From Bacillus sp. X1(2014) (GTDB lineage: Bacteria > Bacillota > Bacilli > Bacillales_B > DSM-18226): 64,000 bases of DNA. The stretch covers positions 434,001-498,000 of the forward strand of contig NZ_VEED01000002.1 of assembly GCF_007678255.1 (NCBI RefSeq), in the 5' to 3' direction. How positions within the stretch are numbered: the first letter of the stretch is position 1; every line of letters starts with the position of its first letter. The position numbers were made by a program, and so were the translations under genes. Of the stretch, positions 9,170 through 44,159 are shown one piece after another. Below the pieces are notes generated by a model that was not told the origin of the DNA, made no database searches, and saw only the letters and a list, made by a program, of their open reading frames with translations.

Positions 9170-9184
9170 AGTTGTATCCTCGCT

Positions 9185-11894: not shown

Positions 11895-11924
11895 ATTATA
11901 AATTACTGTTATATTAAAAATCAA
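11895..11924 (-). promoter_or_regulatory. Candidate paaA promoter with operator-like repeats
   Basis: On the minus strand TTGATT (11919-11924) and TATAAT (11895-11900) are separated by 18 bp. The site is followed by direct repeats of GTTATA, and TATAAC lies upstream in inverted orientation. The arrangement suits a repressor such as PaaX, but no PaaX site is known to me for this group. Confidence 0.5.
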
Positions 11925-11948
11925 ACAATTTTTTAAAAATTTAATATT

Positions 11949-13274: not shown

Positions 13275-13370
13275 TACTCCATCCCCTTTGATAGATTCCA
13301 TCCTTTTAAACGCTTACAAAAAACTTATTGATGTAAAACATGTAACTGATTTTTTGTTAATGATGTGATT

Positions 13371-14029: not shown

Positions 14030-15910
14030 TTACATTCCAAACTTTTGGAGCCTTTTATAAAAAGTACTCCTTGGTATTTCTAGTAATTTCGCGGCTGCGG
14101 TTACATTACCTTTTGTCTTTATTAATGCATCCACCATTAGGTCCTTTTGTATTTTTTCTCGGGCATTTAACTTCTTTTCAGCATCGTCTTTATTTACTTG
14201 AGAATTTGACAAAGAACTGGATGGATGTCTTATTATTAAAGAATCAAAGCTATTAACAAAAATATTCTGACTTGACTGTTCATCAAGAGACATAATGTAC
14301 AGCCGCTCTAAAACGTTTATTAATTCTCTTATGTTTCCTGCCCATTCATAGTCTTTCAATCTAGAAGATAGATCATCCATATTAGGGATGTTCCATCCAT
14401 TTCTTTTACAGAAATACCTGATAAGGTGAGGGATATCTTCTTTTCTTTTTCTAAGAGAAGGAACTTCAATTGGGAAAACGTTCAAACGGTAATAGAGGTC
14501 TTCCCGAAAAATTCCGTCCTCTACAAGTTTCGTAATATCACGGTGGGTTGCTGTAATAACACGAACATCCAATGGGATTTCCTTCGTACTCCCAATCGGG
14601 GAAACATTCTTTTCCTGAAGTACACGCAATAAGGCCACTTGCATGGAATGCGGAATTTCACCTATCTCATCAAGAAAGATCGTCCCCTTCTGAGCCTGTT
14701 CAAATTTCCCTTTATATCCTTGCCGCCTTGCTCCGGTAAAAGCCCCTTCGACATAGCCAAAAAGCTCACTTTCCATAAGTTCTTTCGGAATCGCTCCGCA
14801 GTTTAATGAAATAAATGGGCCATCCTTTCGGGGGCTGTTGTCATGAATTGCCCGAGCAATCAGCTCTTTTCCAGAACCGGTTTCACCTGAAATAAACACG
14901 GTGGTATCTGTTGGAGCTACAAGCTTAACCTTGGCTAACGTATTTTGAAAAACCTCACTCGTTCCACACTCTCCTTTAAAGATAAAGGGTTTTGAATGGC
15001 TTTGTACTTGAATTGATACGTTTTTACGATGTGTTAGCACTTCTGAAATAAAATAGCAGCTTCCGATGATCCTGTTGTTTTCCTTCGAATGAAAAGGCAT
15101 TTCAGCATCAATTTGGTATCCGTTATGTAATAGTTCGTACAGGTTCATTCCGATCGATTGAGGGAACCTTTCGCGAAGCGGTTTACTCGCGGATATGATC
15201 ATTTGTTTTTGATTACATACCAGAAAGAACTGGTTTTGATAGGTCTCTGCCAGATGGCTTGCTTGCTGGAAAAGTGTTATTTCTTCTAAATAGGCCCGCT
15301 TGCTGATTTCTTTTTCAATGGCATAAGAAATCGAAGTGACCATTCCAAGCATAAAGGGGTGAGAATAATTAACTGGGCATGAAACATCAATGACGCCCAT
15401 TAGATTTCCATTATCGTGAAAAATAGGTGTGGCGGAACAGCTCCATTGATGGGAAGCGACGGAATAATGCTCAGCCCCATTAATAGTTACCGCTTCTTTT
15501 GTCTGTAACGCTGTCCCTATTGCATTTGTACCGACCTCCGCCTCAGTCCAGCGCACCCCTTCAACAAAATTAATTTTTCTTGCATCGGATAAGGTTTGTT
15601 TGTTTCCTGTTAAAGATAGAACATATCCATCCGGATCGACCAAAAGTGCCATCATTCCAGAATCTTTTATTGCCTGATCCATCTTTTTTATATAGGGGGA
15701 GGCTATTTCGATCAGCAGAGAATTCTTTTCTTTTTTGGCATCCAGTTCTTCTTTTGATAATAAATCCAGGCCTTTATTTAAATAAGGGTTTACCTTTTCT
15801 TTTTTACAGCGGTGCCAGGATTCCGAAATTCGTTTGTTCAACCGTGCTGAATCAAGAATTCCTTCTTTAACAAATCGCTTCCAAGCATCAAAATAGAAAG
15901 TTGTATTCAT
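14030..15910 (-). CDS. acoR: Sigma-54-dependent activator of the acetoin operon
   Basis: 626 aa enhancer-binding protein. An N-terminal GAF-type sensory region (about 60-200, with E-V-G-T-N-A-I-G-T-A-L) is followed by a second, PAS-like segment. Next comes the AAA+ domain with G-E-T-G-S-G-K-E-L-I-A-R (Walker A), G-A-F-T-G-A (sigma-54 contact) and G-T-I-F-L-D-E-I-G-E (Walker B). A C-terminal Fis-type helix-turn-helix ends A-A-A-K-L-L-E-I-P-R-S-T-F-Y. It should open the -24/-12 promoter upstream of acoA when acetoin is present. The start at 15910 follows AGGAGG. It has its own promoter carrying a cre-like site. Confidence 0.92.
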   Translation of the reverse strand: MNTTFYFDAWKRFVKEGILDSARLNKRISESWHRCKKEKVNPYLNKGLDLLSKEELDAKKEKNSLLIEIASPYIKKMDQAIKDSGMMALLVDPDGYVLSLTGNKQTLSDARKINFVEGVRWTEAEVGTNAIGTALQTKEAVTINGAEHYSVASHQWSCSATPIFHDNGNLMGVIDVSCPVNYSHPFMLGMVTSISYAIEKEISKRAYLEEITLFQQASHLAETYQNQFFLVCNQKQMIISASKPLRERFPQSIGMNLYELLHNGYQIDAEMPFHSKENNRIIGSCYFISEVLTHRKNVSIQVQSHSKPFIFKGECGTSEVFQNTLAKVKLVAPTDTTVFISGETGSGKELIARAIHDNSPRKDGPFISLNCGAIPKELMESELFGYVEGAFTGARRQGYKGKFEQAQKGTIFLDEIGEIPHSMQVALLRVLQEKNVSPIGSTKEIPLDVRVITATHRDITKLVEDGIFREDLYYRLNVFPIEVPSLRKRKEDIPHLIRYFCKRNGWNIPNMDDLSSRLKDYEWAGNIRELINVLERLYIMSLDEQSSQNIFVNSFDSLIIRHPSSSLSNSQVNKDDAEKKLNAREKIQKDLMVDALIKTKGNVTAAAKLLEIPRSTFYKRLQKFGM

Positions 15911-16039
15911 AAACCCTCCTGTAACCATAGGAACTATTTTCTACAGTAATTTTTTATAGATTACTTTTGTAAATCTTGCGAAGAAAAAAGGAGTATTAGT
16001 AGAAATCCGTCAAACGTGGTGTTTAGAAGTACAGTTCTA

Positions 16040-16068
16040 ATTATACAAAACAGAGAATGCGCTTTCAA
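16040..16068 (-). promoter_or_regulatory. acoR promoter with cre-like site
   Basis: Minus strand TTGAAA (16063-16068), 17 bp, TATAAT (16040-16045): a near-consensus sigma-A promoter. A CcpA-like site, TGAAAGCGCATTCT (16054-16067), overlaps the -35. It differs from the cre consensus at two positions. Binding there would give carbon catabolite repression of acoR, as is known in Bacillus subtilis. Confidence 0.65.
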
Positions 16069-16093
16069 TCATACAATTGTCATTATATAGAAA

Positions 16094-16127
16094 ATTAAAA
16101 AAACTACGCGCAATAAACACGTAGTTT
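16094..16127 (-). terminator. Terminator of the aco operon
   Basis: AAACTACG and CGTAGTTT (16101-16108/16120-16127) pair around an 11-nt loop and are followed on the minus strand by a run of seven T (16094-16100). It lies just after the butanediol-dehydrogenase-like gene and separates the operon from acoR. Confidence 0.88.
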
Positions 16128-16144
16128 GATAACTTAATAGAATA

Positions 16145-17203
16145 TTAAAGTGAAGGATCTACAAGTATCTTAATTTGGTTCTTGTTTTTAGTTAATGCTT
16201 CAAATCCTTCAGAAACGATTTGATCAATAGATATTTTTTTAGTTACTAATTCTGCTGCCTGAATTTGCCCATTGGCGATAAGTTGAATAACTTGCGGAAA
16301 AATGTTGCGATAAGCTATGATACTAGTCATTTTTCTCTCAGTTAAAATAAAATTATTTACTGGAATTCTGGCTGGCTTTTCCCATATGCTGATATTCACC
16401 ACATTACCTTCTGATTTTGTCGACTCAATCGCTGTATTAATAGTGGCTTCGATTCCAGCTACTTCAAATGCTACATCAACCCCAAGTCCATTTGTATATT
16501 CTTTTATTGATTCAACCGGATTTACTTCGGTAGGATCAATGACGATGTGTGCTCCAGCTTGTTTAGCAATCTCACGGCGTTCTGCTGAAACCTCTACCGC
16601 AATAATTTGACTAGCTCCTGCCGCTTTAGCAGCTTGAATAACTAATAATCCAATGGGTCCTGTACCGATTACGGCGATTGAATCCCCAATCTTCATATCA
16701 CTTTGGCGAACCGCGTGAACGGCAACAGCTGTTGGTTCAACAAGCGCTGCTTGTTCCCATGACATATGGTCTGGGATTTTATGCACCATCTTTGATGGTA
16801 CAACGCTATATTCTGAAAAACCGCCCAAGCCTCCGGACAGACCAATAAAACCTAATTGTTCACAAACATTATAGTGACCTTTCTGGCAAGAAGAACATTT
16901 CCCGCAGCTGTAAATGGGTTCTACACATACTCGGTCACCTACTTTAATACCTATTACAGCTTCCCCAACTGCTGTCACTTCCCCGGCATATTCATGCCCC
17001 ATAACAATTGGAGCTTTATCCATAGAAATTGGATGGGGCTCTTCTACCGGGACAAAAATAGGGCCAGCCAAATATTCATGTAAATCCGAACCACAAATGC
17101 CACAATAGGATACTTTTATTTTCACCTGATCTTTTTCAACCGAAGACTCGGGAATGTTTTCGACTCTTATATCTTTTTGGTTATACCAAAGAGCAGCTTT
17201 CAT
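16145..17203 (-). CDS. Zinc-dependent 2,3-butanediol dehydrogenase-like enzyme
   Basis: 352 aa medium-chain dehydrogenase, very like BdhA over the first 80 residues. Catalytic zinc ligands are seen in C-G-I-C-G-S-D-L-H-E-Y and G-H-E-Y-A-G-E. Unlike BdhA of B. subtilis as I recall it, it keeps the four-Cys structural zinc loop (C-G-K-C-S-S-C-Q-K-G-H-Y-N-V-C). The NAD site is G-T-G-P-I-G. It probably interconverts 2,3-butanediol and acetoin, feeding the acetoin dehydrogenase encoded just upstream. The second ATG (17203) is chosen because AGGAG lies 8 nt before it. Substrate is inferred from the operon. Confidence 0.85.
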   Translation of the reverse strand: MKAALWYNQKDIRVENIPESSVEKDQVKIKVSYCGICGSDLHEYLAGPIFVPVEEPHPISMDKAPIVMGHEYAGEVTAVGEAVIGIKVGDRVCVEPIYSCGKCSSCQKGHYNVCEQLGFIGLSGGLGGFSEYSVVPSKMVHKIPDHMSWEQAALVEPTAVAVHAVRQSDMKIGDSIAVIGTGPIGLLVIQAAKAAGASQIIAVEVSAERREIAKQAGAHIVIDPTEVNPVESIKEYTNGLGVDVAFEVAGIEATINTAIESTKSEGNVVNISIWEKPARIPVNNFILTERKMTSIIAYRNIFPQVIQLIANGQIQAAELVTKKISIDQIVSEGFEALTKNKNQIKILVDPSL

Positions 17204-17220
17204 AATCATTTCTCCTTTTC

Positions 17221-18600
17221 TTAAACATGAACTGCATGTCCAACGGCACTAAGTAATGCCTCATGGATTGCCTCAGAAAGACTTGGATGGGCAGCAATAA
17301 ATTGTTCCAAACTATCCGTTGTCAACTCAGCATGAAGCATGACGGTACCTTGCCCTATCAGTTCGGTGGCGTGGGGACCGACAATCGAAACCCCAACAAT
17401 TTCCCCATACTCTGGTTCAACTAACACCTTTACCTTTCCAGATTGTTCATTGGAAATTAACGCCTTCCCGTTTGCGGAGAATGGAAACTCCCCAACTCTT
17501 ATATCACCATATTGGTCGATGGCCTGCTTTTCCGTTATACCTACACTGGCAATCTCAGGTGAGGTATAAATGCAGCGGGGCACAGCACGATAATTTACAT
17601 GTGTATCGACTCCGCATGCGTTTAAAGCAGCAACTGTTCCTTCATGGAATGCCACATGGGCCAATTGAATCCCGCCGATAACGTCTCCACAGGCATAGAT
17701 ATTTGGAATGTTTGTTTGCATTTGCTCATTTACTCCAATTCCTTGTCTTGAAAAATCAATGCCGATGTTCTCAAGACCCAAGCTATTTACCCTTGGCTTG
17801 CGGCCAATCGAAACGAGGACCAAATCAGGCTCAACCTCATGGAGACCTTTATCGTTTTCTATAAACGCCTTCTTCTGATCCTTGTTTAAATCTTTTAGTC
17901 TAGTCGAAGAAAAGATAGTAACACCGTCGTTTTCAAGCTCCTTATGTAAGATCGTAGCTACATCTTTATCTTCTCCTGGCAGCAGCTGATCCGCCATCTC
18001 CACAATGGTGACTTTTGTTCCCAATCTGCTATAAATACTAGCAAATTCACAGCCGATTACACCTCCGCCGATAATTAGCAATGAGGAAGGAATGGACTGT
18101 AGCGACATCGCCTGACCACTATGAATGATCCAATCGCCGTCAAACGGTGCAAATGGCAGCTGGATCGGTTCAGAGCCAGCAGAGATAATTATTTTGTCTG
18201 CAGTTATCTCTTCTTGGTTCCCATTATGCTCAATTCGTAAAACCCGGCTCGTTAGGAAAGACGCCGAACCCTTTATTACCTTCACTTTATTTTTCCTCAT
18301 TAGATATTGGATTCCTTGAACCAGTGTCGAAACAATCTTGTTTTTACGGCCCTGAACGGAATTCCAATCGATACCAATGCTGCCAGAAGGCAGACGAATT
18401 CCAAACTCACTCGCATGTTGAAGTGTATTGTACACTCCAGCACTTTCTAAGAGGGCTTTCGTAGGCATGCACCCTTCATTTAAACATGTGCCTCCAAGAG
18501 GTCCCTGGTCTATTATTGTCACTTCATGACCCTGCTGGGCTGCAGTAATTGCAGCCACATATCCAGCAGGACCACCACCTATAATTGCGATCAGAGTCAT
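17221..18600 (-). CDS. acoL: Dihydrolipoyl dehydrogenase (E3) of acetoin dehydrogenase
   Basis: 459 aa FAD disulfide oxidoreductase that reoxidises the dihydrolipoyl group of AcoC with NAD. FAD motif G-G-G-P-A-G-Y at the N-terminus, redox-active G-G-T-C-L-N-E-G-C-M-P-T-K (about 36-48), NAD motif G-G-G-V-I-G-C-E-F, and C-terminal A-A-H-P-S-L-S-E with the catalytic His-Glu are all intact. It follows acoC with a 16-nt gap. Confidence 0.93.
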   Translation of the reverse strand: MTLIAIIGGGPAGYVAAITAAQQGHEVTIIDQGPLGGTCLNEGCMPTKALLESAGVYNTLQHASEFGIRLPSGSIGIDWNSVQGRKNKIVSTLVQGIQYLMRKNKVKVIKGSASFLTSRVLRIEHNGNQEEITADKIIISAGSEPIQLPFAPFDGDWIIHSGQAMSLQSIPSSLLIIGGGVIGCEFASIYSRLGTKVTIVEMADQLLPGEDKDVATILHKELENDGVTIFSSTRLKDLNKDQKKAFIENDKGLHEVEPDLVLVSIGRKPRVNSLGLENIGIDFSRQGIGVNEQMQTNIPNIYACGDVIGGIQLAHVAFHEGTVAALNACGVDTHVNYRAVPRCIYTSPEIASVGITEKQAIDQYGDIRVGEFPFSANGKALISNEQSGKVKVLVEPEYGEIVGVSIVGPHATELIGQGTVMLHAELTTDSLEQFIAAHPSLSEAIHEALLSAVGHAVHV

Positions 18601-18616
18601 AAGAGTTCCCTTCTTT

Positions 18617-19849
18617 CTATAAAAGCATGGTTATCGGCTCTTCTAAATACTGCTTGATCGTTTGTAAAAATGCTGCAGCTGGAGCTCCATCAAGTACACG
18701 GTGGTCAAATGTCAAACTGAGCGGAAGAATGCTTCTTCTTTCTAAATTTTCACCAATATAGGTTGGGGTATCATAAACAGCACCGACACCAAGAATCCCT
18801 GTTTCAGGTGGATTTAAGACTGGTGTGAAATGCTCAACACCATAGGACCCGAGATTACTAATCGTAAACGTGGAACCTTGCATTTCCTCGTGAGTAAGCT
18901 GAGTTTGTCTTGCTTTTTGTGCCAGGGTTTTAATACTTCGAGACAAATCAATAAGTGAACAACTCTCAGCATTGCGGATGACTGGAACCACTAACCCTTT
19001 TTCAAGCGCAACTGCCATGCCAAGATGAACGTTCCTAAACAAATGAATTTTATCGTCCATATACGCACTATTCATCTCGCCGTGCTTCTGCAGTGAGAGC
19101 ACAACGGCACGAGCAATAAAGTCGGTCACCGTTATTTTTTGATCAAAACGATTTTGAACAGTTTTGGCTATTTGCTTTTGTAAAGCCATTAAATCCGTCA
19201 CATCGGCCTTCATGTTAATCGTTAGCTGTGCTGTTTTTTGCAGGCTGTCAAACATTCGTCCAGCAATCACTTTTCGGATTCCACTGAGGGGGATTTGCTG
19301 GGTCTCCTCTATTGGGTTCACCGGAGTTTCGACTGTTTCCTTTTTCTCCTCTGCCTGAGGCGAAGCTGAATTTTTTATGGTTGCCTCTACATCTTCCTTT
19401 GTTATTCTTCCTCCAGGCCCCGTTCCTTTGATATTTTCAATAGTAAGGTTGGCTGCCTCCGCGATTTTCCTTGCGACTGGGGAAATTTTCACGCGATTCC
19501 GAGCCGCTTTTACTGAAGTGATAGACTCTTGTTTTTCATTTACAGATGTGGCATTTTCCACTTCAGTTTTTTGGGCTTCTTCGACTGCCAACGCAGCAGC
19601 TACTTCTTCACCCGGAATTCCGATATAACAAATCACAGTCCCAGGAGGAACCCCTTCTCCTTCGGGAACAGCAATTTTCAATACTGTTCCTTCCGCAGGA
19701 GATTCCACATCAATTTCAATTTTTTCTGAACTGACGCTTGCAATCGATTCCCCCTTTTCGACAGGGTCTCCGACTCCTTTATTCCATATCGATACAGTGC
19801 CTTCTTTCATGGCCATTCCCAATTTCGGCATCACAACTTCTACCGCCAT
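18617..19849 (-). CDS. acoC: Acetoin dehydrogenase E2 (dihydrolipoamide acetyltransferase)
   Basis: 410 aa, three domains. An N-terminal lipoyl domain has the modified Lys in S-S-E-K-I-E-I-D. A peripheral subunit-binding domain follows (I-S-P-V-A-R-K-I-A to T-K-E-D-V-E, about 122-158), then a C-terminal catalytic domain with D-H-R-V-L-D-G-A. Linkers are rich in Glu, Thr and Pro. It takes the acetyl group released from acetoin by AcoAB and passes it to CoA. One lipoyl domain only, as usual for AcoC. Confidence 0.93.
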   Translation of the reverse strand: MAVEVVMPKLGMAMKEGTVSIWNKGVGDPVEKGESIASVSSEKIEIDVESPAEGTVLKIAVPEGEGVPPGTVICYIGIPGEEVAAALAVEEAQKTEVENATSVNEKQESITSVKAARNRVKISPVARKIAEAANLTIENIKGTGPGGRITKEDVEATIKNSASPQAEEKKETVETPVNPIEETQQIPLSGIRKVIAGRMFDSLQKTAQLTINMKADVTDLMALQKQIAKTVQNRFDQKITVTDFIARAVVLSLQKHGEMNSAYMDDKIHLFRNVHLGMAVALEKGLVVPVIRNAESCSLIDLSRSIKTLAQKARQTQLTHEEMQGSTFTISNLGSYGVEHFTPVLNPPETGILGVGAVYDTPTYIGENLERRSILPLSLTFDHRVLDGAPAAAFLQTIKQYLEEPITMLL

Positions 19850-19876
19850 GTTGATCTCTCCTTCCCGCTCTCTGAT

Positions 19877-20905
19877 TTATACTTCTAGAGGTACACCTAC
19901 TAGTTCTGCTGCCACTTTGACAACTGTTTCTACTTTAGGCAGATAAATATCTTCGAGGACCGGTGAGAAAGGTACAGGCGTGTGCGGTGCCGTAATTCGT
20001 TTAATTGGGGCATCAAGTGTATCAAACCCTTTATCGGCAACTAGTGCTGCAATATCCGTAGCAATACTGCATCTTGGATTGGCTTCATCAATAACGATTA
20101 AACGGTTGGTTTTTGCTACAGACGAAAGAATTGTTTCTTCATCCATCGGTGACAGGCTGCGTGGATCAACGACTTCCACTTCAATTCCCTTCTCTGAAAG
20201 TTGCTCAGCAGCTTCCAATGCAGTATGTACCATTTTGCCAACCGCTACAATGGTTACATCTGACCCTTCCCGCTTGATATCTGCTTTACCAATCGGAATC
20301 GTATAATAACCTTCTGGAACATCGCCTGTCATATTATAGAGTGTTTTATCCTCAAAAAAGATGACAGGATCGTTATCTTCGATCGCTGCGAGTAATAATC
20401 CTTTTGCTTCATAAGGTGTGGATGGGACAACCACTTTTACACCCGGAATCGCAGTAAACAGAGCATATAAACTTTGGGAGTGCTGGGCAGCCGCTCTAAA
20501 TCCGGCACCATGCATGGTTCGAATGGTAACTGGAACCTGGGCCTTGCCCCCAAACATATAGCGAAACTTTGCCCCTTGATTTAATACTTCATCTAAACAG
20601 CTTCCAATAAAGTCGTTAAACATTAATTCAGCAATTGGCCTTAAACCGGTTGAGGCCGCCGCCATCGCTGCTCCCATATAACCTGCTTCTGTAATTGGGG
20701 TATCCAAAATTCTTTCCCGACCAAACTCCTGAACAAGTCCTTTCGTGACCCCTAGAACTCCGCCCCATGCATCTTCGTCCTGCAAGTGATCCACTTCAGC
20801 CCCGCCGGCCACGTCCTCACCTAATAAAATGACATTTTCGTCCTTACGCATTGCAAGTTTCATAGCCTCATTTATCGCTGCTGACATACTCAATTTCCTT
20901 GCCAT
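19877..20905 (-). CDS. acoB: Acetoin dehydrogenase E1 beta subunit
   Basis: 342 aa transketolase-like beta subunit of the thiamine-diphosphate E1. G-E-D-V near the N-terminus, D-T-P-I-T-E-A-G-Y-M-G-A-A, and the C-terminal domain with V-D-P-R-S-L-S-P-M-D fit the AcoB/PdhB family. The site AAGGAGG lies 7 nt before the ATG. A 117-bp gap separates it from acoA; no promoter or terminator is clear in it. Confidence 0.92.
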   Translation of the reverse strand: MARKLSMSAAINEAMKLAMRKDENVILLGEDVAGGAEVDHLQDEDAWGGVLGVTKGLVQEFGRERILDTPITEAGYMGAAMAAASTGLRPIAELMFNDFIGSCLDEVLNQGAKFRYMFGGKAQVPVTIRTMHGAGFRAAAQHSQSLYALFTAIPGVKVVVPSTPYEAKGLLLAAIEDNDPVIFFEDKTLYNMTGDVPEGYYTIPIGKADIKREGSDVTIVAVGKMVHTALEAAEQLSEKGIEVEVVDPRSLSPMDEETILSSVAKTNRLIVIDEANPRCSIATDIAALVADKGFDTLDAPIKRITAPHTPVPFSPVLEDIYLPKVETVVKVAAELVGVPLEV

Positions 20906-32819: not shown

Positions 32820-34103
32820 TTACCCCGATGAAGCATGGGATTTCATTCGAATTTCGTAGGAGCTGAAGACTTTTCCATATAAATAGGCAAAACTGAATTG
32901 TAAACCAGAAGCTATGTAGAAAGGCAGGGCTAGTGAACCCAATCCAAAAAGATAGCCGGTAAAATACGGTCCAATCGAGATAGGCAGCCTGATTGAAAAG
33001 ATATTGATGCTTGATGCGAAACCACGGCGCATGTCACGAGTCAAACTCACACTCAACGCTTGCTGTGCCCCTTGTGTACCTCTGTTTAAAGCCGTTCGTA
33101 TGATATACAAGACAGAAACAAGTGCATAGGACGATAGTAAGGGCATCAAAATCAAAAGCAGGCTTGCAATGAGACGAACCAGCACAATGGACCTTATTGT
33201 CCCGTGTTTGTTGGATAATCTTGCTTGTAAGACCGAGGTAACACCTGTCGCAAAAAAAGTGACAGCCAATGTGCCTCCAATCTGTATACTGCTTACCCCG
33301 AATTTAGCCGAAAACCAATAAGACATCATGGGTCCCGTAAGTCCAATGGCAATCCCGTTAAGTATGTTAATGGCTGCGAGCTTTAAGACCGCAGAATTTT
33401 CTTCGCGCAGGATTCTCTTTTCTTGATTCCCTAACTCCTCTTTTATATATCCTGGTTGTTTATCAATTTTTCCTTCCTGAATGGTTAAAATGATTGCCGC
33501 TGTCACAAAGGATAAAACGAAGATAAAGAAGAATATAGGGCGATAGGAAGTGCCTTCTTTAAGATTATGATTCCATAAGGCCGTGATCCCCGCCAGCACT
33601 GCACCTGCCGCCATTCCGAAAAAGCTAAGAGCATTATTCAGACTATATACCTTTCCACGCTCTATTTTTGGGATAAAGGCCGCCAGCCAAGCCTGCTCCG
33701 CCGGGGCACATGGACTGGGAGAACCGGCGTCCGCTTTCCCAAAACCTGAAAGTGTGATTGCAATAAATAACAAAATAGTATTTGTAGATAATATCCCAAT
33801 CAACGCACATCCGGCTGTTAATAGTTCAGAAAAAAGGATAAAGGGTTTTCTCCCCAGTCGATCGCTATAAATACCTATGACTGGGGCTAGTCCTACACCA
33901 AGCAAACCTCCGGCAGCAAGCACACTTCCAATCGCCGCTGTACTCCAACCCAGTGCAGCGAGGTATAGAGACAAATCAACAACTAGCATGCCTTGTCCAA
34001 TACTTCGAATAGCATTGACCAGCATAAGTTTTTTGGCTGCCGGATGAATTTGTCCGGCTCCTTCATCATCGTTCTTACCAAACACAAACTTCAACTTTAT
34101 CAC
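32820..34103 (-). CDS. Major facilitator superfamily transporter
   Basis: 427 aa with about twelve hydrophobic segments. The loop after helix 2 carries G-I-Y-S-D-R-L-G-R-K-P, the MFS signature. No substrate can be assigned; the G-T-Q-G-A-Q-Q-A-L stretch in the second half is not diagnostic. The open frame begins at GTG 34103 with only a weak site upstream, so the true start may be a little further in. It stands alone, flanked by the helicase remnant and the YkvA-like gene in opposite orientation. Confidence 0.85.
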   Translation of the reverse strand: MIKLKFVFGKNDDEGAGQIHPAAKKLMLVNAIRSIGQGMLVVDLSLYLAALGWSTAAIGSVLAAGGLLGVGLAPVIGIYSDRLGRKPFILFSELLTAGCALIGILSTNTILLFIAITLSGFGKADAGSPSPCAPAEQAWLAAFIPKIERGKVYSLNNALSFFGMAAGAVLAGITALWNHNLKEGTSYRPIFFFIFVLSFVTAAIILTIQEGKIDKQPGYIKEELGNQEKRILREENSAVLKLAAINILNGIAIGLTGPMMSYWFSAKFGVSSIQIGGTLAVTFFATGVTSVLQARLSNKHGTIRSIVLVRLIASLLLILMPLLSSYALVSVLYIIRTALNRGTQGAQQALSVSLTRDMRRGFASSINIFSIRLPISIGPYFTGYLFGLGSLALPFYIASGLQFSFAYLYGKVFSSYEIRMKSHASSG

Positions 34104-34401
34104 TTCTTTTCTATTTTTCTTACATCATTTTAAATAATTACGAGGGGATATTGGTAAACCATTGGTTATTTACTCTACTTAAAAGAGTTCCAAATTCTCC
34201 TGTCATTTATTCACATCCATTTCGGTTTACCTATAAAGGAAACATCACAATGGATGCATTATGCCTTTAGAAAACAAAAACCCAAATAGCGGATACAGCA
34301 TAAGTTGTTTAAAATGGTGATGTTCGAAGCAAAATAATCCGAAAGGATCTGGCTGACCGATGAAAAACGAGGATAGTTTATTAGAGAGGGAAGGAAGCGA
34401 C

Positions 34402-34782
34402 ATGGTTAAGCATCCAAACAAATGGGAGGAATTCATACAAAATATTAAACAAAATATCTATATTGTGTATCTCGCATACCGTCATTCGAAAACACCATGG
34501 TATGCTAAAGCATTTTCATTATTGATTGTTGCCTATGCGTTAAGCCCCATAGACCTTATTCCAGATTTCATTCCCGTATTAGGTTATTTGGATGAAGTTT
34601 TTCTGCTTCCCTTGGGGATATTAGAAGTGTTCACCCTGATACCGAATCAAGTATTGCAAGAATGCAGGGTGATGGCCTCCCGAACGCCTAAAATGCTGCG
34701 GAAAAATTGGGCGGCAGCGATTGTTATTCTCCTCGTTTGGATCAGTTTCGCGACCACGGTTCTTTTTAAATGGGTCATATAA
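34402..34782 (+). CDS. DUF1232 (YkvA-like) membrane protein
   Basis: 126 aa. The DUF1232 hallmark A-Y-A-L-S-P-I-D-L-I-P-D-F-I-P-V-L-G-Y-L-D-E is intact, next to a hydrophobic segment, with a C-terminal membrane helix (I-V-I-L-L-V-W-I-S-F-A-T-T-V). Function of the family is unknown. ATG 34402 is preferred over one 14 codons upstream because GGAAGG precedes it. Confidence 0.85.
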   Translation: MVKHPNKWEEFIQNIKQNIYIVYLAYRHSKTPWYAKAFSLLIVAYALSPIDLIPDFIPVLGYLDEVFLLPLGILEVFTLIPNQVLQECRVMASRTPKMLRKNWAAAIVILLVWISFATTVLFKWVI

Positions 34783-34851: not shown

Positions 34852-35994
34852 TTATGTTTTTTTTGATGCGGGTCTGTCTAGCTGAAATCTCCGATAAATG
34901 ATAGGTGATGACTGTATAATGGGGGTGCAATTAGCGTCCTGTACAGCTTTTTCAATCAGATAATGTTTTGGCGCCCATTGGCAGACTGGATCCATCGCAT
35001 AAGCGTCCCCAGTTAAAGCAAAAGCCTGGCAACGGCACCCACCTCCGTCTTGGTGTCTTAGTTCACACGAAAGGCAGGGTTCTGGCATCCATTCTTCACC
35101 GCGGAAATGGTTAAAAGACTCTGATTCATACCAAATATGACTTAGTGACGAGTCAAGAATATTTTCAAAGGAAAAACCCTCAATCATCCCGGCTGTCGGG
35201 CAAGGAAGGACTGCCCCATTTGGTGCTACCGTTAAGCCAATCGTCCCCCATCCCCCCATACAAGGCTTAGGTGCCTGAGCATAATAATCAGAAATAACCC
35301 AAATGATTTCGATTTTTTTCCCAATGCGCGCTTTTGCGGCGTCATAGATTTCACGGGCACGCTCAATCTGAACACGGCTTGGCAAAAGCTGCTCCCGATT
35401 GAGCAAAGCCCAGTTATAATACTGTGTATTCGCCAGTTCCAGACGTTCAGCACCCACCTCCTCGGCGAGTTTAATAATCTCATCCAAATGATCAATATTC
35501 ATTCGGTGCAACACGACATTTAATGATAAATACATTCCGGCGTTTTTTACCGCTTTGCAAGCTTCCCTTTTCTTGTCAAAAGCCTTAAAACCGCCGATGA
35601 TGTCCGAAAGCTTTGCATCGCCTGCCTGAAAGCTCACCTGCACATTTTCCAGTCCGGCATCACAGAGCCGGGCAGCCTTTTCAGTTGTTAATCCAATGCC
35701 GCTGGTTATGAGATTAGTATACATCTCTAATTTATTTGCATGGCGGATAAAAACTTCCAAATCGCCTCGCAAAAGTGGTTCTCCACCGGAAAAATGAACT
35801 TCTACAACTCCCAGATCAGCCGCCTCAGACAAAACACGGCACCACTCCCCGGTCGATATTTCCGTTGCCTTTGAAATCATTTCTAAAGGGTTCGAACAAT
35901 ATGGACAATGCAAAGGACAGCGATGAGTTAGCTCCGCGACCAAGGAATATGGGGGGGGAGCCCCCTTATTATTCTTTGTTATCGACTGAACCAT
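34852..35994 (-). CDS. pqqE: PqqE, radical SAM enzyme of PQQ biosynthesis
   Basis: 380 aa radical SAM protein that makes the first carbon-carbon crosslink between Glu and Tyr of the PqqA peptide, with PqqD as chaperone. The SAM cluster motif is C26-x3-C30-x2-C33 in H-R-C-P-L-H-C-P-Y-C. V-H-F-S-G-G-E-P-L follows. The C-terminal SPASM-type cysteines are seen in P-K-P-C-M-G-G-W-G, L-P-C-P-T-A and E-P-C-L-S-C-E-L-R. Length and order match PqqE of Gram-negative bacteria. Its start overlaps the end of pqqD by 26 nt. Confidence 0.93.
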   Translation of the reverse strand: MVQSITKNNKGAPPPYSLVAELTHRCPLHCPYCSNPLEMISKATEISTGEWCRVLSEAADLGVVEVHFSGGEPLLRGDLEVFIRHANKLEMYTNLITSGIGLTTEKAARLCDAGLENVQVSFQAGDAKLSDIIGGFKAFDKKREACKAVKNAGMYLSLNVVLHRMNIDHLDEIIKLAEEVGAERLELANTQYYNWALLNREQLLPSRVQIERAREIYDAAKARIGKKIEIIWVISDYYAQAPKPCMGGWGTIGLTVAPNGAVLPCPTAGMIEGFSFENILDSSLSHIWYESESFNHFRGEEWMPEPCLSCELRHQDGGGCRCQAFALTGDAYAMDPVCQWAPKHYLIEKAVQDANCTPIIQSSPIIYRRFQLDRPASKKT

Positions 35995-36313
35995 GTTTAT
36001 GGATCACCACCCAACCCTGATCCTCCATTTCCCGGAGAAACTCAGAAATATCTGCTTTCATCGTTTTCAAATCAGGCAAAGCACTTGTATCTGCAGTTTC
36101 TGTGTCTGCCTTTAGTGAAGCCCTTATTTTTTCAGTGATGGTGTTCACGGTTTGTCTTCCGTCACATAAAGTAAGAATAGATGCAGCCGTTTCGTTCAAG
36201 ACCACGACCTTTTCCGGTAACAAAAGAAGATTCTTTTCCCTTACTTTATCAAATTTTAATCGCGCCTTTGCTGCGAGTCTTGGAATACTGTCAGCTAAAA
36301 TTGACTCCACCAC
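35969..36313 (-). CDS. pqqD: PqqD, PqqA-binding peptide chaperone
   Basis: Up to 114 aa. The RRE-fold core is recognisable: I-P-R-L-A-A-K-A-R-L-K-F-D-K-V-R-E-K, L-L-L-L-P-E-K-V-V-V-L-N-E-T-A and I-L-T-L-C-D-G-R-Q-T-V. PqqD binds PqqA and presents it to PqqE. It is somewhat longer than usual owing to an acidic insert (about residues 70-85, A-D-T-E-T-A-D-T-S-A). The start is uncertain: two GTG codons in tandem lie close behind AAAGG. It overlaps pqqE by 26 nt. Confidence 0.88.
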   Translation of the reverse strand: MVESILADSIPRLAAKARLKFDKVREKNLLLLPEKVVVLNETAASILTLCDGRQTVNTITEKIRASLKADTETADTSALPDLKTMKADISEFLREMEDQGWVVIHKHGSVDNKE

Positions 36314-36357
36314 CTTTCATTTATTTTTCGGGTGAGTGATAAAATCATCGTTCACTC

Positions 36358-37107
36358 TTATAGGGGATATGCGTTTTCGATGGCATCAAGCTGTGCCCAC
36401 AACACATCACACTTGAAACGCAGTGCGGCAACAGCCCGCCTTTGATCTTTCGGAGTTTGGCAATAGGTTAACACAAGTTTAAGGGCTGTATCGGCATCAC
36501 GCGGCGCCTGTGAAAGGCGATTTTGAAAATATTCCAGTCCTGCACGGTCAATCCATGGATAAAGGCGCTCAATGACCTTCATTCTCTTTGACATTAAATC
36601 AGGAGAAAACAATTCGGTTAGGGAGGAAGCAACGGCTTCCATCCATGGTTTTGTCCCCGCAAAGTTTACATAGGCATCAACAGCAAATCGAACACCCGGA
36701 ACGACTCTGACCTCCTGCGCTACTTCTTCCCGGGATAACCCCACAGCTTCACCAAGCCGAAGCCATGCTTCAATTCCACCTTCTTCCCCTTGCGTTCCGT
36801 CATGGTCAATGATTCGCCCAATCCATTCACGTCGCATATCCCTTGACGGCAGCCTAGAAAGAATAGCTGCATCTTTAATCGGAACTGATTTTTGATAATA
36901 GTACCGGTTAGCCACCCAACCGCGGATCTGTTCTCTGCTTAATTTTCCTTTATGCATCGCTACATGAAATGGATGTTTGTCATGATAGAAGGAACTTCCA
37001 ACAGCTTTTAATTGCTCTGTGAATTCATCCCTCGTCCATAATTTTTCCTTTGTTTCATTTAACACCTTTTCTAGGTTAAGGAAATCACCTTGATCCAAAA
37101 TGTTCAC
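36358..37107 (-). CDS. pqqC: PqqC, pyrroloquinoline-quinone synthase
   Basis: 249 aa, family length. PqqC is the cofactor-free oxidase that closes the ring and oxidises the intermediate to PQQ. Conserved stretches are K-H-P-F-H-V-A-M-H-K-G, W-V-A-N-R-Y-Y-Y-Q-K-S-V-P-I-K-D-A, D-H-D-G and V-V-P-G-V-R-F-A-V-D-A-Y-V-N-F. Its start overlaps the pqqB stop by 4 nt (ATGA), indicating coupling. It is soluble and all-helical. Confidence 0.94.
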   Translation of the reverse strand: MNILDQGDFLNLEKVLNETKEKLWTRDEFTEQLKAVGSSFYHDKHPFHVAMHKGKLSREQIRGWVANRYYYQKSVPIKDAAILSRLPSRDMRREWIGRIIDHDGTQGEEGGIEAWLRLGEAVGLSREEVAQEVRVVPGVRFAVDAYVNFAGTKPWMEAVASSLTELFSPDLMSKRMKVIERLYPWIDRAGLEYFQNRLSQAPRDADTALKLVLTYCQTPKDQRRAVAALRFKCDVLWAQLDAIENAYPL

Positions 37108-38036
37108 ACCTCCACTTCCATACCGTCATAGGCAATCTCAAAACCTAGCCGTTCCAATGTATGCCTTTCCATTGAGTCCTTCTTAAGAATAGGGTTGCTG
37201 TTGTTTATGTGAATCAGAATTTTCCGTTTGGCTGAGTATTTGGCTAGCTTTTCAGCAATGCCCGATGGCCCGCTAATTGGTAAATGTCCCATATTTCTTG
37301 CATCGCGCTTGGTTGCACCCAACTCAACCAATTCAGTTTCTGACCAAAAAGTTCCGTCCACCATCAAGATATCCGCCTTCTGAAAGCAAGCTTCTATAGC
37401 CGGGGTGATCCTTTCTAAAGTAGGAAAGTAAGCAAGGCATCTGCCGGTACTCTCATTATAAAGAACCAGCCCGACCTCCCATAAATCTTCCGGGTCATTC
37501 TCCTCCTTGTTTGACTGGGTATAAAGCGGCGGTTTTTTAGAAACGGGGACCGTCTCGATGATGATGGTTCCTTCTCCTCCTACACCCGGAAGTCCTATCC
37601 GCTTGCGATGATCAGGGTGAAGAGACTGCCATTCCCATGAACAATAGTTTTTCAGTATGGGTAACACTGGAAAGAATGACTGCAAACACTTTCGTACTGT
37701 CTCGGTTCCATAGATGTTTAAACAAGAACCCTCCCGTAATGACAATAACCCAATCGTATGGTCGAACTCGGCATCGGTTAAAATAACACCAGCCAGCGGA
37801 GTCTCTCTTATACCTGGACCCGGATGCAGGGCAGTAAACGATTCAATCTGCCTGTGAACATCCGGTCCCGCATTAATGAGATACCAATCCTTTTCATTCG
37901 CACTTACAGCAAGCGATGATTGTAATAACGGCTGGTGCGAATCGTTTCCTTCGCGGACACTATGGCAATTTGGACATGCACAATTCCACTGCGGAAAGCC
38001 GCCACCAGCCGCTGCTCCTAAGACTCTAATTCGAAT
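37104..38036 (-). CDS. pqqB: PqqB, metallo-beta-lactamase-fold oxygenase
   Basis: 310 aa when read from its proper N-terminus. Coding extends well above the first ATG of the frame (37745): the codons before it give R-I-R-V-L-G-A-A-A-G-G-G-F-P, then W-N-C-A-C-P-N-C with the zinc cysteines, and T-D-A-E-F-D-H-T-I-G-L-L with metal ligands. No ATG, GTG or TTG lies at the family start. The codon aligned with Met1 is ATT at 38036, with AAAGGA about 10 nt upstream and an overlap with the preceding gene. PqqB is proposed to hydroxylate the crosslinked tyrosine. Confidence 0.9.
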   Translation of the reverse strand: MRIRVLGAAAGGGFPQWNCACPNCHSVREGNDSHQPLLQSSLAVSANEKDWYLINAGPDVHRQIESFTALHPGPGIRETPLAGVILTDAEFDHTIGLLSLREGSCLNIYGTETVRKCLQSFFPVLPILKNYCSWEWQSLHPDHRKRIGLPGVGGEGTIIIETVPVSKKPPLYTQSNKEENDPEDLWEVGLVLYNESTGRCLAYFPTLERITPAIEACFQKADILMVDGTFWSETELVELGATKRDARNMGHLPISGPSGIAEKLAKYSAKRKILIHINNSNPILKKDSMERHTLERLGFEIAYDGMEVEV

Positions 38037-38272
38037 TTGGCTTCAGTCCTTTCACTGGAGACTTGAATACCTTCTTTGCCAATATCCCTAGGTTTACCTA
38101 ATGCCCTTCCAACTTGCCACCCAATCGCTATATTCACTACAGCCATGAGGGGATACAGGAGATAGTCACCCACTGGTTCTGGGAGCAGGAGATCGACGGC
38201 CAACCATCCTCCGGCTGTTGCACACCCAATAATCGCGCCAATCATTGATTTTAGGTACCGCTTTATTTTCAT
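38018..38272 (-). CDS. Small membrane protein between pqqA and pqqB
   Basis: 84 aa with two hydrophobic segments (about 9-31 and 38-60) and a polar tail rich in Lys and Glu. The ATG at 38272 follows GGAGGTAGG. The gene ends inside the pqqB reading frame, overlapping it by 19 nt, so translation of pqqB is probably coupled to it. It is not a known PQQ gene and no family is recognised. Position suggests a role in handling PqqA or the product at the membrane, or in placing the pathway there. Confidence 0.75.
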   Translation of the reverse strand: MKIKRYLKSMIGAIIGCATAGGWLAVDLLLPEPVGDYLLYPLMAVVNIAIGWQVGRALGKPRDIGKEGIQVSSERTEAKFELES

Positions 38273-38331
38273 ATGCCCTACCTCCATTGATTTATAAAAC
38301 TATTAAATGCATGCGCAAGCAGGCTGTGCTG

Positions 38332-38403
38332 TTAGCCAATATAGGCATACATTGTCACCTCAGGAGATGTATTGATCACTTTATACTCAGGCTTCACCCA
38401 CAT
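38332..38403 (-). CDS. pqqA: PqqA, PQQ precursor peptide
   Basis: 23 aa peptide, too short for usual gene calling. It starts M-W-V-K-P-E-Y and carries the essential E-V-T-M-Y motif, the Glu and Tyr spaced by three residues that become PQQ. Length and the M-W-x-K-P opening resemble the PqqA of Klebsiella. AAAGGGGG lies 9 nt before the ATG. It is first in the cluster and followed by the membrane protein and pqqBCDE, which strongly supports the call. Confidence 0.93.
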   Translation of the reverse strand: MWVKPEYKVINTSPEVTMYAYIG

Positions 38404-38422: not shown

Positions 38423-38461
38423 GACACCCACATTGAAAATTCTCACCTGCGCGGGGGTGTC
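38423..38461 (-). promoter_or_regulatory. Leader hairpin before pqqA
   Basis: GACACCC (38423-38429) and GGGTGTC (38455-38461) can pair in the pqqA leader, ending just before the ribosome binding site. The 25-nt loop is AT-rich. The rest of the 400-bp gap upstream has no clear promoter. A control role for translation is possible but not shown. Confidence 0.35.
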
Positions 38462-38805: not shown

Positions 38806-39270
38806 TCAGTACTGGCTACTCTTTAAATGAAAATTAACTGTCCATTGTCCATTTTGATTCATTATTCCATGTGTGTGAAATGACAATTCAGAATTATCTG
38901 ATCTGTAATGTTGCAGCTGTGCTATGATCGTTCCTTTATACTCATTATCACTTATTTTCTGAAACGATTCTGATTCCTCACGAACTAACGTATTCCCAAT
39001 CCAAATATACGGGTTCCCAATCAAACTTTTAGTATCCGGACTAACTTGGATATTTGAATTTGTGGTTATCGTATAATGCAACTGAATGTCTTGGCCATGG
39101 TTTATTATCGAATAATCATTGATAGTTAACCTGATTCCGTTATACTCGGATGAACCTAAGCCATTACTTGACTGAGCATTGGTCAATGTTGGGTAGGCAA
39201 ATCCAAAGAGTAAGGAAATGCATAAGGCGGCACCAATGAATCGCACGGTATAAATCGGTAATTTCCTCAT
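38806..39270 (-). CDS. Secreted protein of unknown function
   Basis: 154 aa. An N-terminal signal peptide (about 1-32: K-L-P-I-Y then F-I-G-A-A-L-C-I-S-L-L-F-G-F-A) is followed by a beta-rich domain with Y-N-G-I-R-L-T-I-N-D-Y and H-Y-T-I-T-T-N. That resembles exported immunoglobulin-like domains, but no family is recognised. The ATG at 39270 has AAGGATGG upstream. It lies between the PQQ enzyme and pqqA with terminators on both sides, so it may be an accessory or simply a neighbour. Confidence 0.7.
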   Translation of the reverse strand: MRKLPIYTVRFIGAALCISLLFGFAYPTLTNAQSSNGLGSSEYNGIRLTINDYSIINHGQDIQLHYTITTNSNIQVSPDTKSLIGNPYIWIGNTLVREESESFQKISDNEYKGTIIAQLQHYRSDNSELSFHTHGIMNQNGQWTVNFHLKSSQY

Positions 39271-39333
39271 ATTAACACCATCCTTATTTTTCGTGAATAT
39301 CTGATGTTTCGTCAATGTATAATTATCCTTTTA

Positions 39334-39390: not shown

Positions 39391-41322
39391 TCATTTCTTT
39401 TTGGATAGCCATTCCGCTAGTGCTTCAGCCTCTGCACCTTTGGCCATACCTGCTGGCATGCGGTCGCCACCATTAAGAATTTTATTCAATATGTCCTCTT
39501 TAGACATAGTTTTACCTATGTGTTGAAGATTTGGTGCTGTTGCGCCTTGAAGATTATCCCCGTGACAGGAAATACAACTTCTTTTGTAAACCTTTTCCGG
39601 ATCGATAACAACGTCTGCTTCCCCTTGTAATTTTGCATTTTTATTTATAGCTCCAGGTTTTAACTTACCTCCGAGACCATAAACAACAACCTTCGTACCA
39701 CCAGTAATGACTGCAACATATTCTTTGCCGTCAACCGTATATATGGAAGGTGCCATTTTGATTTGTTTTCCTCCACTTTGCATGCTCCATAATACTTTAC
39801 CTGTTTTAATATCAAGAGCATTTACCTTTCCATCCAATTCCCCGTAGAAAGCAAGACCGGCGGCCGTACTTGTGAATCCGCCATACATCGGCTCGTCCGT
39901 TTTATTTTGATATACTTTTTTCCCTGTATTCATATCAATTGCTGTAATGGTACCAGAAACCTCAACATCCTTTGGCAAAGGAAGGATCTTTGTTCCTGGG
40001 AAGGTATTATTATCTTTTGCAATCTCTTTTGCATCTTTAGCGGCTACCATTAAATTAGGACTATTAATACCTGGAATAAGCACATAGTTGGTGTCAGGGT
40101 CATATGTCTGTGGAGCATAGCTTTCTCCACCTGGTGTTCCTGGCCATTGGAGAACTGCTTTACTCTCATCGCTTGGTACGTCCGAATGCTGAATCTTTAC
40201 AAAAGGTACCCCATCATAAATGGTCTTCCCTGTTTTTGCGTCCCACGCATACCACTTTCCATTCTTACCGCCTTCAACCACAACCTTTTGCTTTTTCCCG
40301 TCAACCTTTGCACTGAGAATCATCGGTGTTGCGGCAGCGTCATAATCCCATATATCATGATCAACTTGAGTAGATGACCACTTAAACTTCCCTGTTTTAC
40401 TATCTAAAGCAGTGATAGAATCGGTATATGGATTTTTTCCTTTTCTATCTGCATCATAAAAGTCCGGAGCTGGATTCCCTACTGCAAAATACATCATATC
40501 AGTATCTGGATCAAACGACATCGGTGTCCATACGGAACCACCCCCCGTAAATTTACCTTTCGCCCAGCCCGTTCCTCTTTTAGGAACGGTCCAAAATGGC
40601 TCTTTCCATAGCGGTTCCAGGGTATCTGCTTTAAACGCCCAAACAAAACCTCGTGTACCATTATCACCGCCGCTGCTACCAACGTAAACGTTGCCATCAT
40701 AATACATCGGAGCTGAAGATTCATAGTATCTGTTTTCTAATTTGATAGTAGGTTCATGATCCCAAAAGTTAACCATTTTTAACAGTTTTCCGTTCTTCGC
40801 ATCCAGTTTGGCCAGCCGATTATCGATCATCAAGACAAATACATTCCCATTCGCCACTGCGACACCCCTACTTGCCACATTGGACTGCCATGGCAAACCA
40901 TTAATATGATCAAGTACGTCCTTGGGCGGTGTCCATGCCCAAAGCTTCTTTCCACTTGCGGCATCGATTGCAAACACATGATTTTTCGAACTAGTCACAT
41001 ACATGATCCCGTCGTGGACGACAGGGAAATCTTCTTGTAAATTTGGAATATCCTTATTCCAATCTAAGATATCCTGCTGCCATGCAATCCCCATTTTTGT
41101 TACATTCTCTTTTGTTATCTCTTTATAAGGCACATGTCGGGTATGTTGAAGGTCATACCCCCAATTTGGGAATCCTGTCACATCTTCCTGACTTGCCTGG
41201 TTGGATTCCTTGGTTTCCTCTTTTTTGTTATTAGCATTATTCTTCTTATTATTTGACTGACAGCCAACTATAACGATACTTGCTAACAAAACTAAACCTA
41301 ATGACTTTAAATATCGCATCAC
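39391..41322 (-). CDS. PQQ-dependent alcohol dehydrogenase lipoprotein with cytochrome c domain
   Basis: 643 aa. A lipoprotein signal ends at V-G-C (Cys21). An eight-bladed PQQ propeller (about 50-555) follows, with repeated W-motif-like segments such as A-I-D-A-A-S-G-K-K-L-W. The active site shows V-G-N-P-A-P (Asn283) and H-D-I-W-D-Y-D (Asp326 likely base, Asp328). The usual metal-ligand Glu appears as Asp220 in S-G-G-D-N-G. The vicinal Cys-Cys of methanol and ethanol dehydrogenases is absent. A C-terminal cytochrome c domain has C583-I-S-C-H587 and probable ligand Met622. It oxidises an alcohol or sugar outside the membrane and passes electrons through haem. GTG 41322 or ATG 41319 follows AGGAGGG. 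Confidence 0.92.
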   Translation of the reverse strand: MMRYLKSLGLVLLASIVIVGCQSNNKKNNANNKKEETKESNQASQEDVTGFPNWGYDLQHTRHVPYKEITKENVTKMGIAWQQDILDWNKDIPNLQEDFPVVHDGIMYVTSSKNHVFAIDAASGKKLWAWTPPKDVLDHINGLPWQSNVASRGVAVANGNVFVLMIDNRLAKLDAKNGKLLKMVNFWDHEPTIKLENRYYESSAPMYYDGNVYVGSSGGDNGTRGFVWAFKADTLEPLWKEPFWTVPKRGTGWAKGKFTGGGSVWTPMSFDPDTDMMYFAVGNPAPDFYDADRKGKNPYTDSITALDSKTGKFKWSSTQVDHDIWDYDAAATPMILSAKVDGKKQKVVVEGGKNGKWYAWDAKTGKTIYDGVPFVKIQHSDVPSDESKAVLQWPGTPGGESYAPQTYDPDTNYVLIPGINSPNLMVAAKDAKEIAKDNNTFPGTKILPLPKDVEVSGTITAIDMNTGKKVYQNKTDEPMYGGFTSTAAGLAFYGELDGKVNALDIKTGKVLWSMQSGGKQIKMAPSIYTVDGKEYVAVITGGTKVVVYGLGGKLKPGAINKNAKLQGEADVVIDPEKVYKRSCISCHGDNLQGATAPNLQHIGKTMSKEDILNKILNGGDRMPAGMAKGAEAEALAEWLSKKK

Positions 41323-43532: not shown

Positions 43533-44159
43533 TTAATTGATAACCTTCTCTTTTACAGACTCTTTCTTCAACAATTCCTTCACTTTCTGATCGATTCGCT
43601 CAATCTCCGCTGAAGAGTTCTTCCACCAGTTTCGACTCCAAATCCGTTCGATGGTCCAGCCTCTGCTTTCTAGGAACCGTTGACGGTAAACGTCTCTTTC
43701 CTTTGCATTTGCGGAGCTGTGATACATGGCTCCATCGCACTCGATACCCAATATATATCGGGAAGAATCATGCGGGTGAACAATGGCCATGTCAATTCGG
43801 TAACCTGACATCCCTACCTGAGTGGTAACCTCATAGCCGAGGTTTCGTAGTTGATGATACACTTGCTCTTCAAACGGAGAGTCGAAATGTAATTCTTTTT
43901 CCTGTACATGAGTATTTACATTTTCATTGACTTCTTGGACAACCGCATTGATCTGCTCCACTTGTGAGTTTGAAACAGCCCGTACATATTTTAGATAGGC
44001 CCTTAGTAATTTCGGACCTATTTGCGAAGTGTTTGCCACATTCAGTTCTTCTGGCTCAATACTTGAAACCACCGTGATTCCTTCTTTAGCCCGTGTAACC
44101 GCAACGTTCAGTCGGTTTTCTCCACCCTTTTGATTCAGCATCCCAAAGCGGTTATACAC
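43533..44159 (-). pseudogene. C-terminal fragment of a superfamily 1 helicase with DUF559-like nuclease
   Basis: 208 codons. It begins abruptly inside a helicase motif (N-R-F-G-M-L-N-Q-K-G-G-E-N-R-L-N-V-A-V-T-R-A-K), the end of an AAA/UPF1-type helicase domain. It continues with an MTES_1575/DUF559-like endonuclease (F-E-E-Q-V-Y-H-Q-L, Y-R-I-D-M-A-I, G-I-E-C-D-G-A-M-Y-H, R-Q-R-F-L-E). Intact relatives exceed 1000 residues, so most of the gene is missing. The break joins directly to a truncated DnaD-like gene, with an overlap of 8 nt between frames. Confidence 0.8.

Follow-up and report, generated by a model that had tools for sequence, protein, structure and literature searches.

A native pqq gene cluster in Bacillaceae with a probable ATT start codon for pqqB and a linked putative PQQ dehydrogenase

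Genes of the pqq locus and their distribution

The DNA considered here is a stretch of 64,000 nucleotides (nt) from Bacillus sp. X1(2014) (contig NZ_VEED01000002.1, positions 434,001 to 498,000; hereafter the window), in which six genes on the minus strand, between 34852 and 38403, make up a cluster for the synthesis of pyrroloquinoline quinone (PQQ). Read against the direction of the coordinates, these are pqqA, a gene for a small membrane protein, pqqB, pqqC, pqqD and pqqE:

34852..35994, minus strand: pqqE, radical SAM/SPASM enzyme that crosslinks PqqA (TIGR02109, 489.5 bits, cut-off 381.35)
35969..36313, minus strand: pqqD, peptide chaperone (TIGR03859, 61.6 bits, cut-off 46)
36358..37107, minus strand: pqqC, PQQ synthase (TIGR02111, 337.8 bits, cut-off 240)
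37104..38036, minus strand: pqqB, 310 amino acids (aa) when read from an ATT start (TIGR02108, 376.9 bits, cut-off 245, computed on 37104-38039)
38018..38287, minus strand: small membrane protein without a Pfam or NCBIfam match, overlapping the start of pqqB
38332..38403, minus strand: pqqA, precursor peptide with Glu15 and Tyr19

PqqB, PqqC, PqqD and PqqE all exceed the curated cut-offs of NCBI, and PqqE also has a CxxxCxxC motif beginning at residue 26 and matches to the Radical_SAM and SPASM families of Pfam. PqqA is recognized by its Glu-x3-Tyr motif, although its profile scores fall slightly short (TIGR02107, 17.4 bits with a cut-off of 20; Pfam PqqA, 20.0 bits with a cut-off of 21.1), which counts somewhat against a working operon. 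A peptide with this core adjoins pqqB, with pqqA preceding pqqB, in all 30 distinct loci that we compared (counts over these loci leave out the duplicate contigs L051-L057 and L061, which represent the same stretches as other loci). By their coordinates the genes are tightly packed, with overlaps of 19 nt between the membrane-protein gene and pqqB, 4 nt between pqqB and pqqC and 26 nt between pqqD and pqqE, and a gap of 44 nt between pqqC and pqqD. A preliminary description of this DNA had listed pqqA to pqqE and the membrane-protein gene as a single minus-strand unit with overlaps, and had noted that PqqA keeps its Glu-x3-Tyr core; both observations hold. Its list of six genes stands as well, except that pqqB, when only ATG, GTG and TTG are allowed as starts, is a 213-aa open reading frame (ORF) beginning at a TTG at 37745 (codon 98) and devoid of the conserved N-terminus, so that the full gene needs an ATT start. 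Judged from the sequence, the cluster is real, native and complete for the five core genes A to E, which were the scope of the searches, and it very probably represents a functional PQQ operon.

Of 193 genomes of the family, 18 have a PqqC that scores above the cut-off. When 398 genomes were sampled from the whole class, a single one had such a PqqC, namely G001, the genome nearest to the window among those compared (20% of sampled words shared), which means that few members of the class possess the trait. This patchiness, together with the GC content of the operon (45.6%, against 40.2% for the window), is what one might expect if the cluster were a contaminant or a recent acquisition from a Proteobacterium. 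Nevertheless, the order pqqA-B-C-D-E, followed by a gene of the major facilitator superfamily (MFS), is common to loci of Neobacillus, Bacillus, Heyndrickxia, Mesobacillus, Fredinandcohnia and Salirhabdus, and megablast found no plasmid match for the region. Furthermore, in a midpoint-rooted FastTree phylogeny of PqqB, PqqC and PqqE (85 rows, namely 84 of 90 loci and the window, with 890 columns), all Bacillaceae, including the window, split from the rest with a support of 1.000, and their clade lies beside Cohnella and one Acidobacteria metagenome-assembled genome, apart from the sampled Proteobacteria. Since synteny, a single clade and the presence of PqqC in 18 family genomes all agree, we regard contamination or recent proteobacterial transfer as extremely improbable. 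The preliminary claim of a core PQQ set in a Bacillaceae genome is thereby upheld, and the check for transfer by trees that it had proposed revealed no recent event, while an old transfer into the ancestor of these Bacillaceae may still have occurred.

The expectation in that description that such a set would be notable, PQQ synthesis being known mostly from Proteobacteria, is weakened, even though the set is indeed present in a spore former. NCBI already names PqqB or PqqC in many Bacillaceae and Paenibacillaceae (Heyndrickxia, Neobacillus, Cohnella, Paenibacillus and others), and therefore the gene set as such is not new. The window itself most likely comes from a Neobacillus, as a PqqB 99% identical to its own is assigned by NCBI to Neobacillus drentensis. 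In addition, pqqC, D, E and L were reported in a Paenibacillus comparison of 2026 (PMC12926252), and a PQQ cassette was described in Mycobacterium smegmatis in 2011 (PMC3023750). The operon in the window does not differ in kind from those whose PqqB and PqqC are named by NCBI in Bacillaceae, where PqqB starts are given inconsistently. With the pqqABCDE operons of Proteobacteria such as Klebsiella and Methylorubrum it shares the five biosynthetic families and the Glu-x3-Tyr precursor (PMC2294125); the features that set it apart from them are the ATT start of pqqB, the membrane-protein gene between pqqA and pqqB, and the linked MFS gene.

The probable start codon of pqqB

The AAGGGFPQWNC stretch that is conserved in PqqB is in frame in the window, and no canonical start codon lies between it and the preceding in-frame TGA. 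The features proposed for initiation are these:

38034..38036, minus strand: ATT, proposed start codon of pqqB, from the sequence and its conservation over the 30 loci
38047..38053, minus strand: Shine-Dalgarno-like GAAAGGA, 10 nt before the ATT, with per-base conservation examined over the 30 loci

All 30 loci have ATT at the aligned start, and 24 of these contain no ATG, GTG or TTG from the upstream in-frame stop to the conserved N-terminus of PqqB. Five pqqB columns are Ile in all rows; the first of them never departs from ATT, whereas ATT, ATC and ATA all occur at each of the other four, and a single codon is kept in only five of 115 degenerate columns with an invariant residue, the start column included. 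The ATT start is also found in some public annotation: the PqqB of Neobacillus drentensis at NCBI, which is 99% identical to that of the window, is 310 aa long and begins MRIRVLG, and five of 11 database PqqB proteins (P0241, P0243, P0245, P0249 and P0255) begin MRIRVLG at this very ATT. The remaining six differ, since P0242 and P0248 begin MRVLG, at the second ATT, P0251 (from Fredinandcohnia) starts further upstream, P0253 begins at the following Leu-Gly, and P0257 and P0281 lack the N-terminus, a spread that shows how inconsistently this start has been annotated.

One may consider that the first ATT is not the start at all, and that PqqB is produced by a frameshift out of the membrane-protein gene that overlaps it, or is initiated at the second ATT or another codon. 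Several observations weigh in this direction and against our assignment, beginning with the 19-nt overlap in the window and the NCBI entries that start at the second ATT or further upstream. In six of the 30 loci (L062-L065, L068 and L069) the pqqB frame is open upstream of the ATT, at least five of these have an in-frame ATG and/or TTG there, and in L064 codon 5 of pqqB is an in-frame GTG. On the other hand, nine loci (L037 and L062-L069) keep the ATT though no membrane-protein gene was found in them between pqqA and pqqB, which makes frameshifting from that gene unlikely, and in L045 and L058 a TAA immediately precedes the ATT. Moreover, the second ATT is not kept, being GTC in L037 and ATC or ATA in L062-L069, and the first canonical start in the window is the TTG at codon 98. 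On balance an alternative start appears improbable, and we are confident that the first ATT is the genuine start of pqqB.

Whether this start has a regulatory role is a different matter. One ancestral change can yield a lineage-wide state, and a frozen accident without any such role has, in our estimate, an even chance of being correct. What argues against it is that ATT occupies the position in every one of the 30 loci although ATG is a single base away and synonymous sites elsewhere in pqqB have changed widely, and that similar codons recur outside the family. Among 61 non-Bacillaceae loci the PqqB motif was found in 55, and in these the aligned start is ATG or GTG in 39 and ATT or ATC in 16. 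The latter (all within L071-L101) belong to Verrucomicrobia, Chthoniobacter(ales), Spartobacteria and one Bacteroidetes. Twelve of the 16 have a TTG directly before the codon and L094 has a GTG two codons before it, whereas L088, L097 and L101 are free of canonical starts for 14 codons upstream of the PqqB motif; in two of the six loci without the motif, another pattern located a GTG (L074) or an ATG (L112) near the start of pqqB. As ATT or ATC is found at 16 of these loci, three of them without a canonical start nearby, unusual pqqB starts may have arisen, or may have been kept, in more than one lineage.

A precedent for control through the start codon is infC of E. coli, which starts with ATT and is controlled by its own product, initiation factor 3 (IF3; PMC5472188), and in six of six relatives we find ATT-AGC-AAA-GA(C/T)-ATG behind TGGAGGTGG, with the ATT at the known start place of infC. 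Streptomyces sigR, with a GTC start (PMC5472188), is a further case of a non-canonical start codon, and pqqB resembles both in this respect; unlike infC, it is a metabolic gene without a known link to IF3. A regulatory role for the ATT at pqqB, in which the conserved codon would keep PqqB synthesis low and sensitive to IF3, is a suggestion that we put slightly below even chances, control by IF3 being a reasonable inference.

The linked quinohemoprotein and its accompanying genes

Three further genes accompany the cluster, two upstream of pqqA and one downstream of pqqE:

39391..41322, minus strand: lipoprotein, putative quinohemoprotein alcohol dehydrogenase of 643 aa, with a PQQ propeller, D326-x-D328 and a C-terminal haem c motif CxxCH
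38806..39315, minus strand: secreted 169-aa protein of no assigned family, with the Met of residue 16 as its probable start
32820..34103, minus strand: MFS transporter (Pfam MFS_1), candidate PQQ exporter

The first of these has matches to the PQQ and Cytochrome_CBB3 families of Pfam and a lipobox, IVGC. Its structural model has a mean predicted local distance difference test (pLDDT) score of 80.4, and its four best Foldseek matches are quinohemoprotein alcohol dehydrogenases (PDB 1kb0, 1kv9, 1yiq and 8gy2), which have the same PQQ propeller with a C-terminal haem c, followed by PedH. It does not reach the TIGR03075 subfamily (297.7 bits, with a cut-off of 480.05), though fold and motifs are alike, and its haem domain scores to Bacillus-type c551/c550 models, below their cut-off. 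In all likelihood this protein is a PQQ dehydrogenase.

In this enzyme Asp328, two residues past the catalytic Asp, stands at the place of the extra Asp that distinguishes XoxF- and PedH-type enzymes and that binds lanthanide in both (PMC11845868, PMC5487730), whereas the four aligned quinohemoproteins carry Thr there. Among 2442 homologues the best 120 all show this D-x-D, as do 45 of the 47 rows drawn from the window and the loci (duplicate contigs counted); the two exceptions, both from Pseudomonas loci (L113 and L126), have D-x-T. Asp220, Asn283, Asp326 and Asp328 do not vary among 42 aligned sequences. Compared with PedH and XoxF (PDB 6zcv, 6zcw, 4mae and 6dam), with which it shares the propeller fold and the aligned D-x-D, the enzyme of the window has a lipobox, a fused haem c and two departures that count against lanthanide use: Asp220 replaces the Glu expected as the third metal ligand (Asp in 119 of the best 120 homologues, with a gap in one), and WQSNVASRG occupies the place of the vicinal Cys-Cys disulfide, a Cys pair that the four quinohemoproteins also possess. 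Since the membrane glucose dehydrogenase carries D-x-D too (PMC11996626), the motif is no proof of lanthanide use, and it is an even bet that the enzyme uses Ca2+ or Mg2+ and that D-x-D tells us nothing about lanthanides. A lanthanide as the natural metal, suggested by the position of the extra Asp in PedH and XoxF and by the Thr of the related quinohemoproteins, is a candidate to which we give slightly less than an even chance. The words Bacillota, Firmicutes, Gram-positive and Bacillus are absent from the accessible text of the lanthanide papers PMC11996626 and PMC11845868.

A quinoprotein of the window family (at least 59% identity) lies within 20 of the 30 loci, and L037 has a distant one (32%); in the other nine (L060 and L062-L069) none of the window family was present within the stretch examined, which weakens the association of enzyme and operon. 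In L037 (Mesobacillus), a 748-aa quinoprotein at 10979-13222, beside the pqq genes, carries D-M-D together with a Glu ligand and a vicinal CC, and so differs from the window enzyme. Across the family, a quinoprotein match at 1e-30 occurs in 40 of 193 genomes, namely in every one of the 18 that have PqqC and in 22 of the 175 others. In these 22, where the open frames are mostly 720-800 aa, the cells may use PQQ made by others, or the quinoprotein-like proteins may need no PQQ.

The MFS protein (E up to 1e-80) is found in exactly the 18 of 193 family genomes in which PqqC exceeds its cut-off and in none of the 175 others, and its gene lies downstream of pqqE in 29 of the 30 loci, the exception being L060 from Fictibacillus. 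In a draft genome of Neobacillus pocheonensis (L046, 11667-12948) the MFS gene is in pieces, reflecting either a sequencing error or a broken gene. The co-occurrence argues against a mere neighbour with another role, such as metabolite or drug export, although linkage alone could explain it. Such a different role is nonetheless fairly probable, given the weak likeness to MFS models of multidrug, tetracycline and sugar efflux, all below cut-off, and the lack of an MFS match in two Cohnella genomes with pqq genes and in the Fictibacillus genome of L060, which has the pqq operon and a 64% quinoprotein; an empty answer of this kind proves nothing by itself, yet it counts against an essential exporter. 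The protein had no sequence match in the PDB at 1e-3. That it exports PQQ is thus possible and, in our view, rather doubtful.

The small membrane protein (E up to 1e-6) occurs in the same 18 family genomes as PqqC, is conserved, and has an ORF match in 22 of the 30 loci. In both Cohnella loci its relatives are neighbours of the quinoprotein, and so the protein may go with the dehydrogenase rather than with PQQ synthesis. The 169-aa protein (E up to 1e-8) is present in 17 of 193 family genomes, all among the PqqC-bearing 18. The dehydrogenase, at 60% identity or above, is encoded in these same 17, and G095, the eighteenth, carries another quinoprotein, of 748 aa, instead. The 169-aa protein was aligned over 23 sequences, and its model has a mean pLDDT of 76 and consists of a helix followed by beta strands. 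It belongs to no Pfam family, no PDB sequence matched it at an E value below 0.69, and Foldseek, at E up to 0.001, gave a single match (3fbq, with a TM score of 0.52 by query and an unstated function).

A proposed scheme and other features of the window

Taken together, the account we hold to be likely is that of a working PQQ operon, native to part of the Bacillaceae, whose pqqB is read from an ATT and whose product is used by a PQQ dehydrogenase on the cell surface, the gene for which lies immediately upstream. According to the known pathway, PqqE with PqqD would crosslink Glu15 and Tyr19 of PqqA, a peptidase would free the crosslinked Glu-Tyr pair, PqqB would hydroxylate the freed pair, and PqqC would complete PQQ. 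The cofactor would then be exported, for which the linked MFS protein is a possible route, and would be inserted into the lipoprotein quinohemoprotein, from which electrons would pass through its haem c to the respiratory chain, while the ATT start of pqqB would keep PqqB synthesis low and IF3-sensitive. A bolder version, in which the AUU start ties PqqB translation to IF3 and the surface quinohemoprotein uses a lanthanide through a new Asp-Asn-Asp-Asp site, is unlikely in its entirety; if true, it would reveal a lanthanide-dependent respiratory module with its own PQQ exporter in spore-forming Gram-positives.

The novelty here lies in an ATT that is conserved where pqqB begins, in the unusual metal site that the linked dehydrogenase has, and in a transporter and a membrane protein that co-occur tightly with PqqC. 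Among the titles and opening lines of abstracts listed by literature searches, from whose coverage subscription journals were mostly missing, none deals with an ATT start of pqqB or a Bacillaceae lanthanide enzyme. A conserved AUU start on a biosynthetic gene, if real, would join the short list of genes in which the start codon is a control element, and it may explain why predicted PqqB proteins such as P0257 and P0281 lack an N-terminus. PQQ is made in the cytoplasm and used outside; an older proposal had PqqB itself carry PQQ (PMC4263746), and a transporter that is restricted, among the sampled family genomes, to those bearing PqqC offers a concrete candidate. Similarly, if a dehydrogenase of Bacillaceae should prove to depend on a lanthanide, rare-earth biology would extend to spore formers.

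Upstream of pqqA, at 38423-38461, there is a possible hairpin with the arms GACACCC and GGGTGTC. We dropped it as a conserved element, as RNAalifold predicted no consensus structure for 16 loci and Rfam had no match at gathering score. Sigma-70-like sites were no commoner than in shuffled sequence (nine found, with a shuffle mean of 12.2), and nine terminator-like sites were found, against a shuffle mean of 5.3. Next to pqqE there is one more gene, convergent with the operon:

34360..34782, plus strand: DUF1232 protein (PF06803), with an ORF match in 12 of the 30 loci

Elsewhere in the window, positions 3606-13301 encode a thiolase, an aldehyde dehydrogenase, an enoyl-CoA hydratase and an AMP-binding ligase (by Pfam), which resemble a phenylacetate pathway. 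Positions 14030-20905 hold a sigma-54 activator beside genes for a zinc alcohol dehydrogenase and E3-like, E2 and transketolase-like E1 proteins, resembling an acetoin/butanediol operon. Finally, a 208-aa protein at 43533-44159 with an MTES_1575 nuclease domain matches the ProA and Hhe anti-phage models (1903 and 1797 positions) in their C-terminal part only, and is probably either a remnant or a short relative.

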